Assembly: GCA_015493615.1 (NCBI GenBank)
Contig: WGCV01000057.1
Span: forward strand, 1 to 43,391
Origin: Melioribacteraceae bacterium
Lineage (GTDB): Bacteria; Bacteroidota; Ignavibacteria; Ignavibacteriales; Melioribacteraceae
DNA length: 43,391 nt
Reading direction: 5' to 3'
Below, piece by piece: positions 1 to 32,263 of the stretch; the stretch's first letter is position 1; every line of letters starts with the position of its first letter. The notes under the pieces were generated by a model. It was not told the origin of the DNA. It was given only the letters and a program-made list of their open reading frames with translations, and made no database searches. Position numbers and translations under genes: made by a program.

Positions 1-2
1 AT

Positions 3-230
3 AACCAAAATGCTATTGAAATTCAAATATGGGTAAGTTTGATTATACAGCTTATTATGCTTGTTATTCAAAGAAATGCTGAAAGAAAATGGGCTTATTC
101 GAATATGGTTTCTGTTATTAGATTTCATTTAATGACCTACATAAATTTATTCAAATTTCTAAAAAATCCCGACTCTGACTGGAAATATTTAACGACAAAA
201 AACGATGAACAATTACTCCTTTTTGACTGA
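3..230 (+). CDS. IS4-like family transposase, C-terminal fragment (runs off left edge)
   Basis: The reading frame is open from the left edge to a TGA at 228-230, about 75 residues, so only the C-terminus is visible. It begins NQNAIEIQIW and contains a hydrophobic stretch (LIIQLIMLVIQ), then RNAERKWAYSNM and a conserved-looking tail MTYINLFKFLKNPDSDW. This layout, a hydrophobic helix followed by a polar helix and an aromatic tail, resembles the C-termini of IS4-group DDE transposases in Bacteroidetes. The catalytic DDE residues lie outside the window, so it cannot be said whether the copy is intact. The family call comes from recalled protein style, not a search. The insertion probably removed the start of the next gene. 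Confidence 0.55.
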   Translation, partial: NQNAIEIQIWVSLIIQLIMLVIQRNAERKWAYSNMVSVIRFHLMTYINLFKFLKNPDSDWKYLTTKNDEQLLLFD

Positions 231-326
231 AAGGGGGGTTCTATTTTTACTTTTGCACTTTTTCTTTGTTTTTATACGGTATATTTAATTATTTTTTATT
301 TTCGTATTTTTATCGGACACCAATGA
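231..326 (+). mobile_element. Probable right end of the IS4-like element
   Basis: This AT-rich, non-coding stretch lies between the transposase stop and the open frame of the truncated gene to the right. The string TATCGGACAC near 311-320 looks like an insertion-sequence end, but the matching left inverted repeat is outside the window, so the exact border is a guess. No other feature is visible here. Confidence 0.3.
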
Positions 327-794
327 TTCAGAATACCAAAATCAGTTAGTGTTAAGCCCGATTATAGATTTAAAAATCTAAATTTTTTGAAACCGTATTT
401 AAGATATGCCAAAAGAATAGAAATCATCGATAAACAATTGTTTAAAGATACCCGCAATGAAACAGAAGGAGACTTTTTAATAGAAATTTTGAAAACGGTT
501 GAAAACTTACAAGAGATTGGGTTAATTTCAGAAAAGATTCCTAAAAATAATTTAAGATTAAAAAGTTTTCAAAAAAAAGTTAGGGATATTTCCCCAAATA
601 TTGTTTTTTTGAAGCACAGAGAATATGTCAGCAGAGGTAAAAATCACGACAGGTTTTTAATTGTTGATAAAAACAAATATTCAATAATGTTTTCAACAAG
701 TTTTAATAACTTTTATTTGAATAGTGAAAAAAATGAATTTGTTTCAAAAGCTGGATTTGAAATTGTATTTAAGAAAGGCAGAAAGTTTTATTAA
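327..794 (+). pseudogene. Phospholipase-D-like (HxRx4D) protein, 5'-truncated
   Basis: The frame is open from about 327 to the TAA at 792-794 with no ATG at the front; the first possible start is a TTG at 387, giving 135 residues. The C-terminal half contains HDRFLIVD, an HxRx4D variant of the phospholipase D HxKx4D motif. It is followed by a short hydrophobic strand and SFNNFY. The start of the readable frame (KNLNFLKPYLRYAKRIEIIDKQLF) already looks like the inside of a domain, so the N-terminus was probably lost when the insertion sequence to the left arrived. Only one PLD-like motif is present; enzymes of this kind need two, within one chain or in a dimer. It is likely dead, or at most a single-domain protein from an unusual start. 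Function is unknown. Confidence 0.45.
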
Positions 795-909
795 GAGGAT
801 AAGCATTAATATATTGCCGCAATATTGCCGAAATCAAAAACTAATATTTTTTTTATACATTTTAATAAGTAATTAAATAATCTTATTTCAAATATTAATT
901 GAGAAAACT

Positions 910-2271
910 ATGGACAAACAAAAAGCATTTAACATAATTAAATCGGTTTTTAGAAAATCTTTAGCCAGTTTTGACGATGATAGGATCCAAAATGAGCGGG
1001 ATTGGGAGATGCATTTGTATGGATTATTTAAGGATGAAATTGGCGCTGAGAGAATAAAAGATTACCATCTTTTTATAGAATTCAGAGCTGCAAAATATGA
1101 TGGGAAAAATAAGCTTTGGATAACTCCAAATAAATACAATAAGAAAAAAGAACTAATTAATAAATTTTATGATGTAAAAGTGGACCCAACCGGACATATT
1201 CTAATAGAGTTAGATAAAAATAAACTGCCACTTGATAAAAATATAATAAGAGTTTTGAACGATGAAAAAGAACGAGCTTATTATATAGATATAATATTGT
1301 TAAAACGGAGTGATTTTTCTAGAATTTTTCTTATTGAATTAAAATATGGGTCTAATATTCAAGAGAAAGTTAAAGAGGATTATTACAAGTTAAAAAGGAC
1401 TGAAAGTGTAAAGAATCATGATGCTATTTATATTAGCATTGGATACGATACTAACACAAAGGAAATTTATTGGATGCCAACTAAGAAAAAGTATGATTAT
1501 TCACTTGACATAAATAAACTGGATAAAATAAAAAAAGAAAAAAATAAAAGGGAGACTGAACTAACTCCCAAAATTATTGAACAAATACTAAAAGATACAA
1601 CAAAAGAAATTTATGAAGATTATATTTACATTACTGAAGCGACTTGGGCAAGTGAAATAATGTTTCAAATTACAAAAAAAACAACCGATTCATGGAGATG
1701 CAATAGCGAAATTAAAGGTATTTTTGATAATCCACGTGAGCGACTGGATTTAGGTGTTTATAATAATAAAAACGAAAAATTAATCTACGGCATCGAGTTA
1801 AAAGGGCATTGGGAAGGTGGAACGCCTTATGAAATCAGACTTGATATGGCAAATGATAAAAAAATAGAAAAAGATTTTTTATTAAAGACAAAAGAATTTT
1901 TAAAAAAATATAATCAGGACAAAAGTTTAAAATCAAAACTTTCAGCTTATCCCAAATACAAAGGGATTTATTTTCTAAATCCTGATTTTTTTGATAAAAT
2001 TATTGAGATGTATCACCAATGTGAAAGGCTGAATAATAATAAATATATTGAGAATGCTTTTATGGTATTTATTGACCATCAAGACGACTTTAGTATTCGT
2101 AAAAAAACACCCTCTTTTTCATATGAAGTTTTTATTCAAAATTTTTCATATAGAAAAAAATTAATAATGGATATATTAAAACCTGTTTCAGGGAAATGTG
2201 AGATAATATATTTTTATGCATTAAATATTAGAAATAATAAGAAAAAAATGTTTTTATTGGATGACCAGTAG
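910..2271 (+). CDS. Hypothetical protein with two PD-(D/E)XK-like nuclease motifs
   Basis: This 453-residue protein has no signal peptide or membrane segment and is lysine-rich (AT-rich DNA). It carries two copies of a restriction-endonuclease-like core. The first runs from an N-terminal helix with E29/E33 through YYIDIILLK (D127) to LIELKYG (E143, K145), followed by a charged helix (about 151-165). The second has a helix around E243/E249, then RERLDLGVYNN (D280), YGIELKGHWE (E296, K298) and another charged helix (about 310-330). D-x(15)-E-x-K spacing is the classic PD-(D/E)XK signature and both copies keep all three residues. It starts the three-gene run 910-3491; the next gene begins 10 bp downstream. 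Possible roles are DNA cleavage in defence or repair; the target cannot be inferred. I do not recognise a named family. Confidence 0.6.
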   Translation: MDKQKAFNIIKSVFRKSLASFDDDRIQNERDWEMHLYGLFKDEIGAERIKDYHLFIEFRAAKYDGKNKLWITPNKYNKKKELINKFYDVKVDPTGHILIELDKNKLPLDKNIIRVLNDEKERAYYIDIILLKRSDFSRIFLIELKYGSNIQEKVKEDYYKLKRTESVKNHDAIYISIGYDTNTKEIYWMPTKKKYDYSLDINKLDKIKKEKNKRETELTPKIIEQILKDTTKEIYEDYIYITEATWASEIMFQITKKTTDSWRCNSEIKGIFDNPRERLDLGVYNNKNEKLIYGIELKGHWEGGTPYEIRLDMANDKKIEKDFLLKTKEFLKKYNQDKSLKSKLSAYPKYKGIYFLNPDFFDKIIEMYHQCERLNNNKYIENAFMVFIDHQDDFSIRKKTPSFSYEVFIQNFSYRKKLIMDILKPVSGKCEIIYFYALNIRNNKKKMFLLDDQ

Positions 2272-2281
2272 GATTTAACAA

Positions 2282-2743
2282 ATGGAAATAAAAAAAGAAT
2301 TTTCTAAAAACGATATTAAGGGAAATATCGATTTCTTATTTGACCAACTTTGGACCCGAATGAATGGACGGGAACTTGCAAGAGAAAAATGTTATGAGAA
2401 TATTGATACTATTGTTAATAAATTTAAAATTCACCAAAAGGATTTTGATAAGTTACTTGCATCTTTAACGTCTTTAGAGGGTATTGGATTAGTAATTGCG
2501 AGCGGTTTAATTTTTATGGCTTTTCCTAATGATGCCGTTCCTTTTGATAAATATACAATGGGCTATTCCCTTCGGCAGGGAATATTAAGGAATAACAAAA
2601 TATCCGGGAGTAGATATTCTTCAGCGTGCAAAGAAGTTGTTCGTTACATCGATAATACCCAGCATATAAATGATATTTGGGGATTTGTTAGAGCCGCTGG
2701 AGAAGCGTTTTTAGAAGAAGAATTATTAATTGGTCCTAAATAA
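2282..2743 (+). CDS. Small helix-hairpin-helix (HhH) protein, DNA-glycosylase-like core
   Basis: This 153-residue protein has a central region SLEGIGLVIASGLIFMAFP (about 64-82) that matches the HhH pattern L-x-G-I-G-x-x-x-A-S, with G67-I68-G69. It is followed by VPFDKYTMG with D89 at about the position of the conserved Asp in HhH-GPD base-excision glycosylases. No Fe-S cysteine cluster and no catalytic Lys in the hairpin are visible. It is much shorter than MutY or Nth, which exceed 200 residues. The start lies 10 bp after the upstream nuclease-like gene, whose stop region (AGTAGGA) supplies the ribosome site, so the two are probably translated together. It may bind DNA or act on modified bases in partnership with that protein. 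Function is inferred from one motif only. Confidence 0.5.
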   Translation: MEIKKEFSKNDIKGNIDFLFDQLWTRMNGRELAREKCYENIDTIVNKFKIHQKDFDKLLASLTSLEGIGLVIASGLIFMAFPNDAVPFDKYTMGYSLRQGILRNNKISGSRYSSACKEVVRYIDNTQHINDIWGFVRAAGEAFLEEELLIGPK

Positions 2744-2771
2744 CAAAAAAAAGTTTAATTGAGGTGACATG

Positions 2772-3491
2772 ATGAAAGAAAAAAAAGCTTTATTTTTATT
2801 AGATAATAATTTATGTGGGACATCTGTTGAAAATTTAATTTTGGCGCCGGATCAATTAGGGGCGCGCCATTTACATGACACCATGAATTTTGTATATACA
2901 GCTAAATTATTTAAAAAATATAGTTATAAAATGGATAGCTTATCACCATTCAGCTTTTTAAATAAAAATTTTGATGAATATAAGTTCGTAATTGTTAATA
3001 CTCATAGAATTAATCAAGGAAAACTTCTTCAAACTGACATTAACAGAAAAAGGTTTTATGTTAAATCTAAAAATTTATTAATGAATGGAACTCACATAAT
3101 ATTTCTTCATCATTTTAATCATCTTTTTACTAAACAAGGTCTAAGTGAATTGTTGGGAGTAAAAACTTATCATGGAAAAAATGGATTTGTTGATGACAAA
3201 TTTAATGCAGAAATTGAAGTAAAAAATAAATTTACAATTGATGGTGAACGAGTCTTAAAAAATAAAAATATTTTCGGTAAAGATGAATTTACTTATCAGG
3301 AAGAAACTAAATCAAAATTTAATACTTTTATATCTAAATCAAGAAATGGTAAAAAATTCATTTTATTCGGAAATATGAAATTTAATAGTAGTTATGCTTT
3401 TATAGTTGATATTCATGATGTTGGAAGAACAAGAGGCAATGAAATATTATTTAAAAGAATAATTGAAAATATTCTTCAGCAACTGAAATAG
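2772..3491 (+). CDS. Hypothetical protein, possible glutamine-amidotransferase-like (ThuA-like) fold
   Basis: Two adjacent ATGs occur at 2769 and 2772. The GAGGTGA ribosome site at 2761-2767 leaves one base before the first and four before the second, so 2772 is chosen (239 residues). The order of strands suggests a flavodoxin/class-I-amidotransferase-like sheet: KKALFLLDN at the start, YKFVIVNTHRI about 70-82, GTHIIFLHHFNHLF about 105-118, KKFILFGNM about 195-203, and a closing helix ILFKRIIENILQQL. The HH pair in FLHHF resembles the GGG...H turn in ThuA-like proteins, but no catalytic Cys-His-Glu triad is evident. It is the last gene of the AT-rich trio, 28 bp after the HhH gene, and is followed directly by a MITE-like repeat. 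Function is unknown. Confidence 0.4.
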   Translation: MKEKKALFLLDNNLCGTSVENLILAPDQLGARHLHDTMNFVYTAKLFKKYSYKMDSLSPFSFLNKNFDEYKFVIVNTHRINQGKLLQTDINRKRFYVKSKNLLMNGTHIIFLHHFNHLFTKQGLSELLGVKTYHGKNGFVDDKFNAEIEVKNKFTIDGERVLKNKNIFGKDEFTYQEETKSKFNTFISKSRNGKKFILFGNMKFNSSYAFIVDIHDVGRTRGNEILFKRIIENILQQLK

Positions 3492-3497
3492 TGTAAA

Positions 3498-3659
3498 AGA
3501 AACCTTTGCAAAACCTAAAATTGTCATATTGAGTCCGCCAAGGCGGAGTGAGAACCGTCCGAAATATCTCTAAATTCGGTACTATTACCGGTTTTGAGAT
3601 TCTTCATTCCGCTTCGCTTCATTCAGAATGACAAATTTCGGGGTTATGCAAAGCCTTCT
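3498..3659. mobile_element. MITE-like element A (subfamily 1)
   Basis: This element is 162 bp. The left end is AGAAACCTTTGCAAAACC; the right end, read on the other strand, is AGAAGGCTTTGCATAACC, which matches at 15 of 18 positions. It is flanked on both sides by AAA (3495-3497 and 3660-3662), a plausible 3-bp target duplication. The interior holds TCCGCCAAGGCGGA, a segment ending ATTACCGGTTTTGAG shared with elements B, D and H, and ATTCAGAATGAC. It lies just after the unknown gene ending at 3491. Confidence 0.75.
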
Positions 3660-3857
3660 AAAAAATGGTTTGTTTTGATATTCGAACCCTAAAAAAGTCA
3701 ACGCTATTCAGAAAAATTCATACTCTTATATCTAACTTCTAACTTTTCACTCTTCTGGCTTGGCGGACTCTTTCATCTAACTTGTGAAAATATTATTTCA
3801 ATAAACAAAGAATTTTTTGCAATACTTAAATCCCAAAACCCATTCAATAACTTCTGC
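3660..3857. other. Intergenic stretch with short repeats, no gene seen
   Basis: No convincing gene. It contains a degenerate heptamer run (CTAACTTCTAACTTTT, about 3733-3748) and a fragment GGCTTGGCGGACT (about 3757-3769) that matches the interior of the MITE-like elements. No clear terminator for the chloride channel gene was found. Confidence 0.5.
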
Positions 3858-5966: not shown

Positions 5967-6110
5967 AGAAACCTTTGCAAAACTGAGGACGGTGTAAGCC
6001 GTCCGAAATATCTCTAAATTCAGTATAATTACCGGTTTTGAGATTCTTCTCCCGCTCCGCCTTGGCGGAGGATCAGAATGACATATAAATTAGGTTATGC
6101 AAAGCTTTCT
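5967..6110. mobile_element. MITE-like element B (subfamily 1)
   Basis: This element is 144 bp, with left end AGAAACCTTTGCAAAACT and right end GGTTATGCAAAGCTTTCT. AAG flanks it at 5964-5966 and 6111-6113. The interior shares GTCCGAAATATCTCTAAATT and ATTACCGGTTTTGAGATTCTT with element A and has a CTCCGCCTTGGCGGAG palindrome near the right end. Confidence 0.75.
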
Positions 6111-6324
6111 AAGAAAAATCAGTAATAATATGAATAAAAAATTTTTTAGACTTCAAATATAATAAAGATAGAAGATAAGAGAAGTTTTATTGCCGGAAAA
6201 GGCAAATCATTTTGGTTAAAACAGAGTTGGTTTAGAAAACACAAAGATGTTTGTTCGGATAAGAAGAAATGATGGATAAATTTATTTCAGATTGTAGTCA
6301 CAAAAGAATTTCAATTATTATCTT
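6111..6324. other. AT-rich spacer between elements B and C
   Basis: No gene, RNA or clear hairpin was recognised in this stretch of the 726-bp gap between the chloride channel gene and proS. The rest of that gap is element C and the proS leader. Confidence 0.5.
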
Positions 6325-6504
6325 AGAAGACTTTGCATAACCCCGAAATTTGTTATTCTGATCCTCCGCCAAGGCGGAGCGGGAGAAGAACCTCCTTTCC
6401 CACACTAGTGCAAATACTAATTTTGAGATTCTTCGCTCCGCTCAGAATGACTATGCTTGGTTGGCGAAATCAATATGACAATTTTAGGTTTTGCCAAGGT
6501 CTCT
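6325..6504. mobile_element. MITE-like element C (subfamily 2)
   Basis: This element is 180 bp, with left end AGAAGACTTTGCATAACC and right end GGTTTTGCCAAGGTCTCT. CTT flanks it at 6322-6324 and 6505-6507. The interior differs from element A: it holds a CTCCGCCAAGGCGGAG palindrome, then CCCACACTAGTGCAAATACT, then GAGATTCTTCGCTCCGCTC and ATGCTTGGTTGGCG. The same interior is seen in F and, reversed, in E. Confidence 0.75.
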
Positions 6505-6668
6505 CTTAAATAATCATAATAGCTCATAAGAAATCAGCGTCTTATTTACACATTCAAAACTACATACGCTTAACCACAGCAGTAGAAATTCTTCCACATA
6601 TTTTTGAATTAACTCGGTTCTTTCTTATTTTTGCAGATTAATAAAATTTATAACACAGGAAAAACATA

Positions 6669-9115: not shown

Positions 9116-9475
9116 AAAAACTTTTAGAGACCTTTGCATAACCTAAATTTGTCATATTAAGTCCGCCAATCCGCCAAGGCGGAGGAGGAGTGTAAGCCGT
9201 CCGAAATATCTCTAAGTTGGGTATAATTACAGGTTTTGAGATTCTTCTCCCGCCAAGGCGGGATCAGAATGACATATAAATTAGGTTTTGCAAAGCCTTC
9301 TTTTACAAAACCTAAAATTATCATATTGAGTCCGCCAACCAAGCGTAGTCATTCTGAGCGGAGCGAAGAATCTCAAAATTAGTATTTACACCAGTGTGGG
9401 AAAGGAGATTCTTCTCCCGCTCCGCCTTGGCGGAGGATTCAGAATGACATGATATTGGGCTATGCAAAACCTTCT
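9116..9475. mobile_element. MITE-like element E (subfamily 2, reversed), split by element D
   Basis: The body 9305-9475 ends with GGCTATGCAAAACCTTCT and is the reverse of element C (GCATAGTCATTCTGAGCGGAG-type interior and the CACACTGGTG segment reversed). Its left end is interrupted. Joining 9116-9125 to 9305 onward, after removing element D and one TTT copy, gives AAAAACTTTTACAAAACC. That matches the left terminal repeat of element A at 15 of 18 positions. So E was here first and D landed in its terminal repeat. The 3-bp duplication of E itself is not clear. Confidence 0.65.
9126..9301. mobile_element. MITE-like element D (subfamily 1), nested in E
   Basis: This element is 176 bp, with left end AGAGACCTTTGCATAACC and right end GGTTTTGCAAAGCCTTCT. 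TTT flanks it on both sides (9123-9125 and 9302-9304), as expected for a 3-bp target duplication inside the CCTTTGC part of E's terminal repeat. The interior is like B, with a second TCCGCC/GGCGGA palindrome inserted after GTCCGCCAA. Confidence 0.75.
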
Positions 9476-9512
9476 ATAATTTATTTTGTTAGATGTTTTC
9501 CAACGTATATGA

Positions 9513-21148: not shown

Positions 21149-21318
21149 ATAAGGCATAACACTATAATATGTCATTCTGAATCCCGCCTCTGGCGGGAGA
21201 AGAATCTCCTTTCACACACTGGTGCAAATACTAATTTTGAGATTCTTCGCTCCGCTCAGAATGACTATGCTTGGTTGGCGGACTCAATATGACAATTTTA
21301 GATTTTGCAAAAGTCTCC
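21149..21318. mobile_element. MITE-like element F (subfamily 2), left end decayed
   Basis: The interior matches element C closely: CTGAATCCCGCCTCTGGCGG, CACACACTGGTGCAAATACT, GAGATTCTTCGCTCCGCTC, ATGCTTGGTTGGCGGACTC. The right end GATTTTGCAAAAGTCTCC (21301-21318) is a diverged terminal repeat. The left end seems shortened to ATAAGGCATAAC. No target duplication could be fixed. Confidence 0.6.
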
Positions 21319-32100: not shown

Positions 32101-32101
32101 T

Positions 32102-32263
32102 AGAAAGGTTTGCGTAACCTTACAATATGTCATTCTGAATGGAGCGAAGCGAAATGAAGAATCTCAGAACCAGCAATTATACCGGATTTAGAGATATTTC
32201 GGACGGCTTCTACTTTCGTAGTGACAAACTCAATATGACAATACTATTCTTTGCAAAGTTTCT
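32102..32263. mobile_element. MITE-like element H (subfamily 1, reversed)
   Basis: This element is 162 bp, with left end AGAAAGGTTTGCGTAACC and right end ATTCTTTGCAAAGTTTCT. AAT flanks it at 32099-32101 and 32264-32266. The interior is the reverse of element A: CATTCTGAATGGAGCGAAGC, then AGAGATATTTCGGACGGC. It sits directly after the hslU stop codon. Confidence 0.75.

Follow-up and report, generated by a model that had tools for sequence, protein, structure and literature searches.

OLD-type ATPases gate nucleases in systems such as Gabija. The Menshen system (NsnABC) of Vibrio phage 10N.286.55.E6_PE002 (PQ189377.1) carries an NsnB-type DUF3696 ATPase in a small multi-gene locus. On the sensory side, a study of CoCoNuT systems (PMC11090510) proposes that RtcR-like CARF proteins sense RNA ends with cyclic phosphates and switch on CoCoNuT superoperons, and two other sources (PMC8844856, PMC8699464) describe Csa3-type proteins, which occur in CRISPR loci and join CARF to a winged helix. 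Here we describe a candidate defense operon in a Melioribacteraceae bacterium (GCA_015493615.1) that has features in common with each of these. The window, that is, the whole stretch of 43,391 nucleotides that was analyzed, is the complete contig WGCV01000057.1 (C57) of a draft genome (G000) of 67 contigs and 3.15 Mb, and the genes in question are three adjacent ones near its left end, termed P1, P2 and P3.

With moderate confidence, we read P1 as the nuclease arm of a CARF-controlled, ATPase-gated defense operon whose genes lie partly on another contig. On sequence evidence, it is the ATPase family, and not NsnA, that this operon has in common with Menshen; in further contrast to Menshen, its ATPase is split into two genes at two of three loci, and a CARF gene and operator-like sites are present. 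With CoCoNuT it has in common an RtcR/CARF-type protein of the kind proposed to switch on downstream restriction genes; here, however, CARF is joined to a C-terminal domain and would control ATPase and P1 genes rather than relatives of McrBC. The likeness to Csa3-type proteins lies in the CARF sensor domain and a presumed DNA-binding C-terminus. It is conceivable, though in our estimation rather doubtful, that the locus represents a new immune circuit, in which a CARF protein with a dedicated operator switches on both an ATPase/partner unit and a new family of double PD-(D/E)XK proteins, with lineage-specific accessories. If so, the accessories behind the nuclease vary, being a glycosylase-like and an amidotransferase-fold protein here and SSB in a related genome (G414). 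Among the papers listed by searches of the open-licence literature, none described a P1-type system.

Gene order at the P1 locus

P1 (positions 910–2271, 453 amino acids), P2 (2282–2743, 153 amino acids) and P3 (2769–3491, 240 amino acids) are real, intact, AT-rich genes that all lie on the + strand, in agreement with the shared direction reported in a preliminary description made from the sequence letters. The gap of 10 bases given there between P1 and P2 is correct, whereas that between P2 and P3 is 25 bases, the reported 28 being obtained only from the second ATG of P3. The higher AT content claimed relative to the flanking genes is borne out by both G+C content (26.7, 32.9 and 24.2% for P1, P2 and P3, respectively, versus 38–43% in three downstream genes) and third-position G+C (0.15–0.25 versus 0.37–0.46 in the same three genes). 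P1, with its two PD-(D/E)XK-type motifs, is a putative nuclease, P2 a small HhH-GPD-like protein, and P3 a protein with a predicted class I amidotransferase-like fold that lacks a conserved cysteine. None of the three gave anything above cut-off in Pfam or NCBIfam, and PADLOC returned weak matches only.

The window begins within an IS4-like insertion sequence (IS), the right end of which occupies about positions 1–326 (+ strand) and holds the 3′ end of the transposase frame (3–230). Positions 178–326 recur unchanged at the ends of contigs C38 and C67, and positions 1–151 at the end of C11, on which the IS copy matches Pfam DDE_Tnp_1 and DUF4372 above cut-off. Right ends of the element are found at three contig ends (C57, C38 and C67) and left ends at another three (C11, C65 and C17), and the element, approximately 1.39 kb long when the C11 copy is overlapped with the window, breaks the assembly. 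The adjoining insertion sequence mentioned in the preliminary description is thus confirmed; it is of the DUF4372/DDE_Tnp_1 (IS4-like) type and has additional copies elsewhere in the genome. The left flank of C17 shares letters with the window past the IS, whereas those of C11 and C65 do not. These letters constitute a target-site duplication of 7–9 bases, depending on where the end of the IS is placed (326–334), and also end the C17 left flank. Joining the C17 and C57 flanks restores a single frame with 296 residues between stops, equivalent to a gene of about 288 amino acids across the empty site; its 3′ part, cut by the IS, occupies 327–794 (+ strand), and the frame runs continuously over the joined flanks. 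We refer to this PLD-like gene as the partner gene. C17 carries, upstream and in the same orientation, a CARF/RtcR-like gene and two overlapping ATPase genes. Taken together, the shared flank letters, the continuous frame and the genes on C17 give the order CARF–ATPase-1–ATPase-2–partner::IS–P1–P2–P3; we infer this join from a draft assembly, and the same order is seen in G414. On this reading, the first half of the operon is on another contig because the IS broke both the operon and the assembly. The broken PLD-like gene noted in the preliminary description is therefore indeed the 3′ part of an IS-cut gene, but it belongs to the operon and is not a mere neighbor. Without an intact partner gene, the ATPase arm has probably lost its function in this genome, and the system may be decaying there.

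A profile search found P1 in three of 164 genomes of the order, namely G000, G414 and G452. The second of these, from the same family but another genus, holds the operon on a 5-kb contig without an IS, in the order CARF C-terminus–ATPase-1–ATPase-2–partner–P1; the contig breaks off within the CARF gene at one end and within an SSB gene at the opposite end. Identities to the proteins of G000 amount to 54% for the CARF part, 75% over 75 residues for ATPase-1, 39% for ATPase-2 and 50% for P1. The gene behind P1 in G414 is this SSB gene (L107:2-255; Pfam SSB above cut-off), where G000 has P2 and P3. In G452, which belongs to another family, P1 is divergent from a partner gene and one undivided ATPase gene (554 residues), and the locus is flanked by genes that read as housekeeping; the list of open reading frames (ORFs) for this 19.9-kb stretch contains no CARF, P2 or P3 gene, no dedicated search for them having been made. 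P1 thus adjoins ATPase and partner genes at all three loci (in G000 via the join), and P2 and P3 at one.

Searches across the phylum scored only part of the first-look candidates (at most 5, 2 or 4 per genome), so that counts outside the order are lower bounds; among 296 genomes, they returned no credible P1 beyond that of G000. Another search, of 395 genomes, yielded G000, G414 and one match in G051 (E 7.8e-4), which falls at the start of an apparent secreted protein and was taken as chance. No relatives of P1, P2, P3 or the CARF protein were found in plasmids, none of P3 in phages, and none of P1, P2, P3 or the P3 and P1 alignments in viral contigs. Exact peptide patterns of P1 gave no relative in genome contigs either, in a search that requires near-exact peptides and is little informative about distant relatives.

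The preliminary description treated the trio as one possible system and named homologues always standing apart as the finding that would speak against this. Such homologues were found at a small number of loci, two for P1 and one for P3. Because P1 occurs elsewhere without P2 and P3, and the P3 homologue lies apart from both, the trio is probably not a natural unit; rather, P1 belongs to a larger, probably anti-phage, operon. If P1, P2 and P3 instead formed a free-standing defense or repair cassette that merely lies beside the ATPase operon, their spacing (10 and 25 bases), their shared low G+C content and the operator-like site before P1 would be readily explained, but at each of the other two P1 loci the ATPase and partner genes are present and P2 and P3 are missing from the locus, and the credible P3 homologue lies elsewhere (with three P1 and two P3 loci known). 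We regard such a cassette as very improbable. That the genes belong to defense, as had been suggested, is supported as probable, and the case for P1 as a defense gene is untouched by the failure of the trio.

P1, the ATPase and the partner protein

The residue sets E33, D127/E143/K145 and E249/D280/E296/K298 are invariant in all three P1 sequences, at 41–50% identity, as would be expected of two PD-(D/E)XK sites. A restriction-endonuclease fold is suggested by alignment of the predicted model to known folds, in which the top rows, taken by acetyl-CoA carboxylase, are followed by BstEII (Z 5.8), Cdn1 (5.7), NucC (5.4) and other restriction-endonuclease-fold entries below 5; Foldseek gave no match at E 0.001 or better. 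PADLOC returned PDC-M24A (E 0.0036) and SspC (0.018) as weak matches of the G000 protein and no match for the P1 proteins of G414 and G452. P1 stands for a nuclease-like family that has gone without an above-cut-off match in Pfam, NCBIfam and PADLOC.

The ATPase proteins match AAA_15, AAA_21 and DUF3696 above the Pfam cut-offs. NsnB outscores all other PADLOC models for the large ATPase proteins (100–127 bits); for the small ATPase-1 of C17, it comes slightly behind AriA. In both G000 and G414, the Walker-A part is encoded by a separate small gene, the end of which overlaps the start of the next by four bases; because this overlap recurs in two genomes, an assembly error is an unlikely origin of the two-gene arrangement.

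The prominence of NsnB among these matches raises the question of whether the locus is a divergent Menshen (NsnABC), with the ATPase as NsnB, the PLD-like partner standing for NsnC, and P1 replacing NsnA. The ATPase profile matches the annotated phage NsnB at 98.4% probability, the G452 locus displays a three-gene layout, and the partner fragment in the window (387–791) matches the PADLOC NsnC model with an E-value of 1.7e-6. However, this last match is gone when the full partner is read, for which nothing relevant was found (a warning about fragment matches more generally), and the partner profile reaches only 0.1% against the phage NsnC. P1, in turn, scores 0.2% against the phage NsnA, and none of the three P1 proteins carries, according to Pfam, the GmrSD_N/DUF262 domain which that NsnA has; the search for NsnA scanned the P1 proteins, the other ORFs of the loci having been read but not all scanned. 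DUF3696 ATPases also occur beside other partners. Because P1 is not NsnA and NsnC is not established, we do not file the system as Menshen, and consider a divergent form of it unlikely.

One such other setting is found on the Prevotella plasmid pE2-28 (L120:1405-6476), where helix-turn-helix, GIY-YIG and WYL genes, a DUF3696-like ATPase gene and a hypothetical partner lie near type I restriction genes. Its ATPase is 37% identical to that of C17 over 155 residues, and neither the Prevotella partner nor that on an Exiguobacterium plasmid matches MIT_C or the partner profile.

The partners at the P1 loci of G452 and G414 score just below the cut-off of 25 bits for MIT_C (PLD-like), with 21.1 and 23.6 bits, respectively, and these two proteins also match the C-terminal part of the BrxL model. 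BrxL variants with a C-terminal HKD-type nuclease have been described (PMC12839542); unlike these, the partners are stand-alone proteins without an AAA domain. Assignment of the partner as an HKD nuclease was rejected, since the alignment of the three partners shows that the motif's histidine is not conserved.

The CARF protein and operator-like sites

The CARF gene on C17 matches Pfam RtcR with 32.2 bits (cut-off 23.1) as well as the PADLOC RtcR/CARF models. Its product of 320 amino acids joins CARF to a C-terminal domain and lacks the sigma54 AAA part; this C-terminal domain, which we tentatively read as an OmpR-like winged helix, is 54% identical in G414. A Fic/SoFic-like gene (L102:3589-4623) adjoins the CARF gene on C17 in divergent orientation.

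A 20-bp operator-like motif, consisting of two TTGCSR half-sites 11 bases apart, is located at 814–833 (+ strand), 76 bases upstream of the P1 start codon, and a second site in G000 precedes ATPase-1 on C17. The distance from the motif to the downstream start codon is 56–76 bases for P1 in G000 and for ATPase-1, P1 and ssb in G414. With one mismatch allowed, whole-genome searches gave two hits in G000 and three in G414, all at this locus, and no site in either G452, whose P1 locus has no CARF gene, or G236, the genome with a P3 homologue. The one match in G009 falls within a coding frame and was discarded. The placement of all five sites speaks for a function. Motif and CARF gene co-occur, with two P1 loci having both and one having neither, which is suggestive, although the loci are few. 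For binding the motif, the CARF protein is the evident candidate. The locus may offer a small and specific example of an RtcR/CARF-type protein that seems to be coupled to a defense operon via identifiable DNA sites, and these sites make it testable which signal the CARF protein responds to and whether it acts on transcription.

By analogy with RtcR-like and Csa3 proteins, we propose that the CARF protein controls both transcription units. An RtcR/CARF-type sensor with a DNA-binding C-terminus would bind a nucleotide or RNA-end infection signal and govern transcription from two operator sites, one driving the two-gene ABC/OLD-type ATPase together with the PLD-like partner, the other driving P1, with P2 and P3 behind it in G000. 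The ATPase–partner complex would then sense aberrant (phage) DNA and license cutting by P1, the target of which may be nucleic acid of either the invader or the host cell. P2 and P3 would have been gained in the lineage of G000 and would extend recognition, P2 probably by binding damaged or modified bases and P3 as a non-glutaminase module of amidotransferase fold that is also present at another defense locus. Despite the broken partner gene, P1, P2 and P3 would keep their own operator. Of this scheme, the sequences themselves show the order of the genes (across one contig join), the disruption by the IS, the constant neighbors of P1, its invariant active-site residues and the positions of the operator-like sites; the signal, the binder of the sites and its effect, gating by the ATPase, the target of the nuclease, what P2 and P3 do, and a role in defense as such are inferred.

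A number of observations weigh against this proposal. The case is built entirely from sequences and models; P1 loci number three only, and the C17–C57 join depends on a draft assembly. The predicted P1 model is poor (predicted local distance difference test score (pLDDT) of 52), acetyl-CoA carboxylase (Z 6.9) takes the top rows of its fold alignment ahead of the nuclease folds, and the protein has no match above cut-off in any of the three family collections named above. The G000 and G414 partners resemble each other only in their N-terminal part (24% identity, E 2e-4), the C-terminal part in the window having no significant match to the G414 partner, and a BLAST comparison of the G000 and G452 partners gives nothing at E 1 or better. 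A winged helix at the C-terminus of the CARF protein is supported by neither Pfam nor PDB sequence matches. Finally, the motif pattern was built from these very sites, and the reversed pattern gives 3, 1, 0, 0 and 4 hits in G000, G009, G414, G452 and G236, respectively, so single motif matches can be chance.

P2, P3 and other features of the window

P2 scores 24.4 bits against an endonuclease III profile, compared with 9.9 bits for the best of 2000 shuffles; this profile, however, derives from three genes recovered by the P2 search itself. The similarity covers the HhH-Gly/Pro-Asp core, in which the column of the catalytic aspartate is kept, whereas the column that we take to correspond to the catalytic lysine of bifunctional HhH-GPD members holds valine, so that the lysine of bifunctional glycosylases is not kept. 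The ogg model matches weakly (E 0.08), and no HhH family of Pfam matches. At E 0.01 or better, P2 was found in 8 of 296 genomes including G000; three of the other seven matches (L005, L006 and L009) read as endonuclease III genes, and the remainder are weak, with stops in L003, L004 and L007 and a short match within a long frame in L008. The PDB sequences that P2 matched, ribosomal protein L22 and RXR, were taken as chance matches, and a weak PADLOC match to Cas13Cterm has an E-value of 0.011. Brig1 (PMC11078745) provides a precedent for a DNA glycosylase in phage defense, a role that the HhH-GPD-like P2 might also have.

The presence of an HhH-GPD-like protein, together with the SSB gene behind an operator-like site in G414, would also suit an inducible DNA-repair operon comprising an SMC/OLD-like ATPase, a nuclease, an HhH-GPD protein and SSB. 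Its sporadic occurrence (3 of 164 genomes of the order), low G+C content, Fic/SoFic-like neighbor and best family matches to defense models point away from repair, none of them decisively, and we judge a repair operon decidedly unlikely. In the CARF-controlled defense operon that we favor, P2 and P3 look like optional accessories.

For P3, comparison of a model of medium confidence (pLDDT 63.5, residues 116–196 poorly defined) with known folds gave a best Z of 10.1, and GH42 middle domains, ADC synthase, ThuA and DJ-1 were matched at Z 8–10 over 128–183 residues, which points to a class I amidotransferase (GATase/ThuA/DJ-1)-like fold; Foldseek returned no match at E 0.001 or better. The sole cysteine, C16, is not kept in the homologue from G236, and a conserved nucleophilic cysteine is thus missing. 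Although 7 of 296 genomes contain a P3 match at E 0.01 or better, only that in G236 is credible besides G000 (E 3.8e-10 in the search; 28% identity and E 1e-13 in pairwise alignment). The other matches, L012–L017, have E-values of 4.7e-4 to 8.4e-3, with stops in three of six. In G236 (L018:907-10852), the P3 homologue lies 11 bases behind a gene encoding a 1587-residue HATPase-helicase protein, which matches the models of Tiamat TmtA (E 5e-50) and Mokosh MkoA (E 6e-22), with McrB/McrC-like genes (by reading) nearby. In contrast to the P1 locus of G000, this Tiamat/Mokosh-like locus has no adjoining P1, P2 or NsnB-like gene by ORF reading. Among 59 genomes around and including G236, a P3 homologue was found in G236 only. 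Because it occurs at another defense locus, apart from P1 and P2, P3 looks like a portable accessory. Matches of P3 to a beta-glucosidase in the PDB and to Pfam Dit_C (19.8 bits, cut-off 27) were taken as chance, and the 2 viral-contig and 67 genome-contig stretches that fit a P3 motif pattern contained no relative by profile, in a search requiring near-exact peptides. The nuclease, HhH and amidotransferase-like assignments made in the preliminary description hence appear reasonable, with support that differs by protein.

Elsewhere in the genome, a gene pair beside another IS copy (L101:523-2219) resembles an AbiE-type toxin–antitoxin by reading. Downstream of P3, past a short dispersed repeat, a gene that reads as a chloride channel lies on the opposite strand. 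The repeat is approximately 170 bases long with inverted ends (by reading), resembling a small transposon remnant, and its copies are 69–93% alike. In the window, they are located at 3495–3665, directly behind P3, and at 5999–6116, 6323–6507, 9126–9301, 9302–9479, 21275–21317 and 32101–32263. Further copies are present in L094, L101 and L102, and one of the copies lies just before the IS copy on C11.

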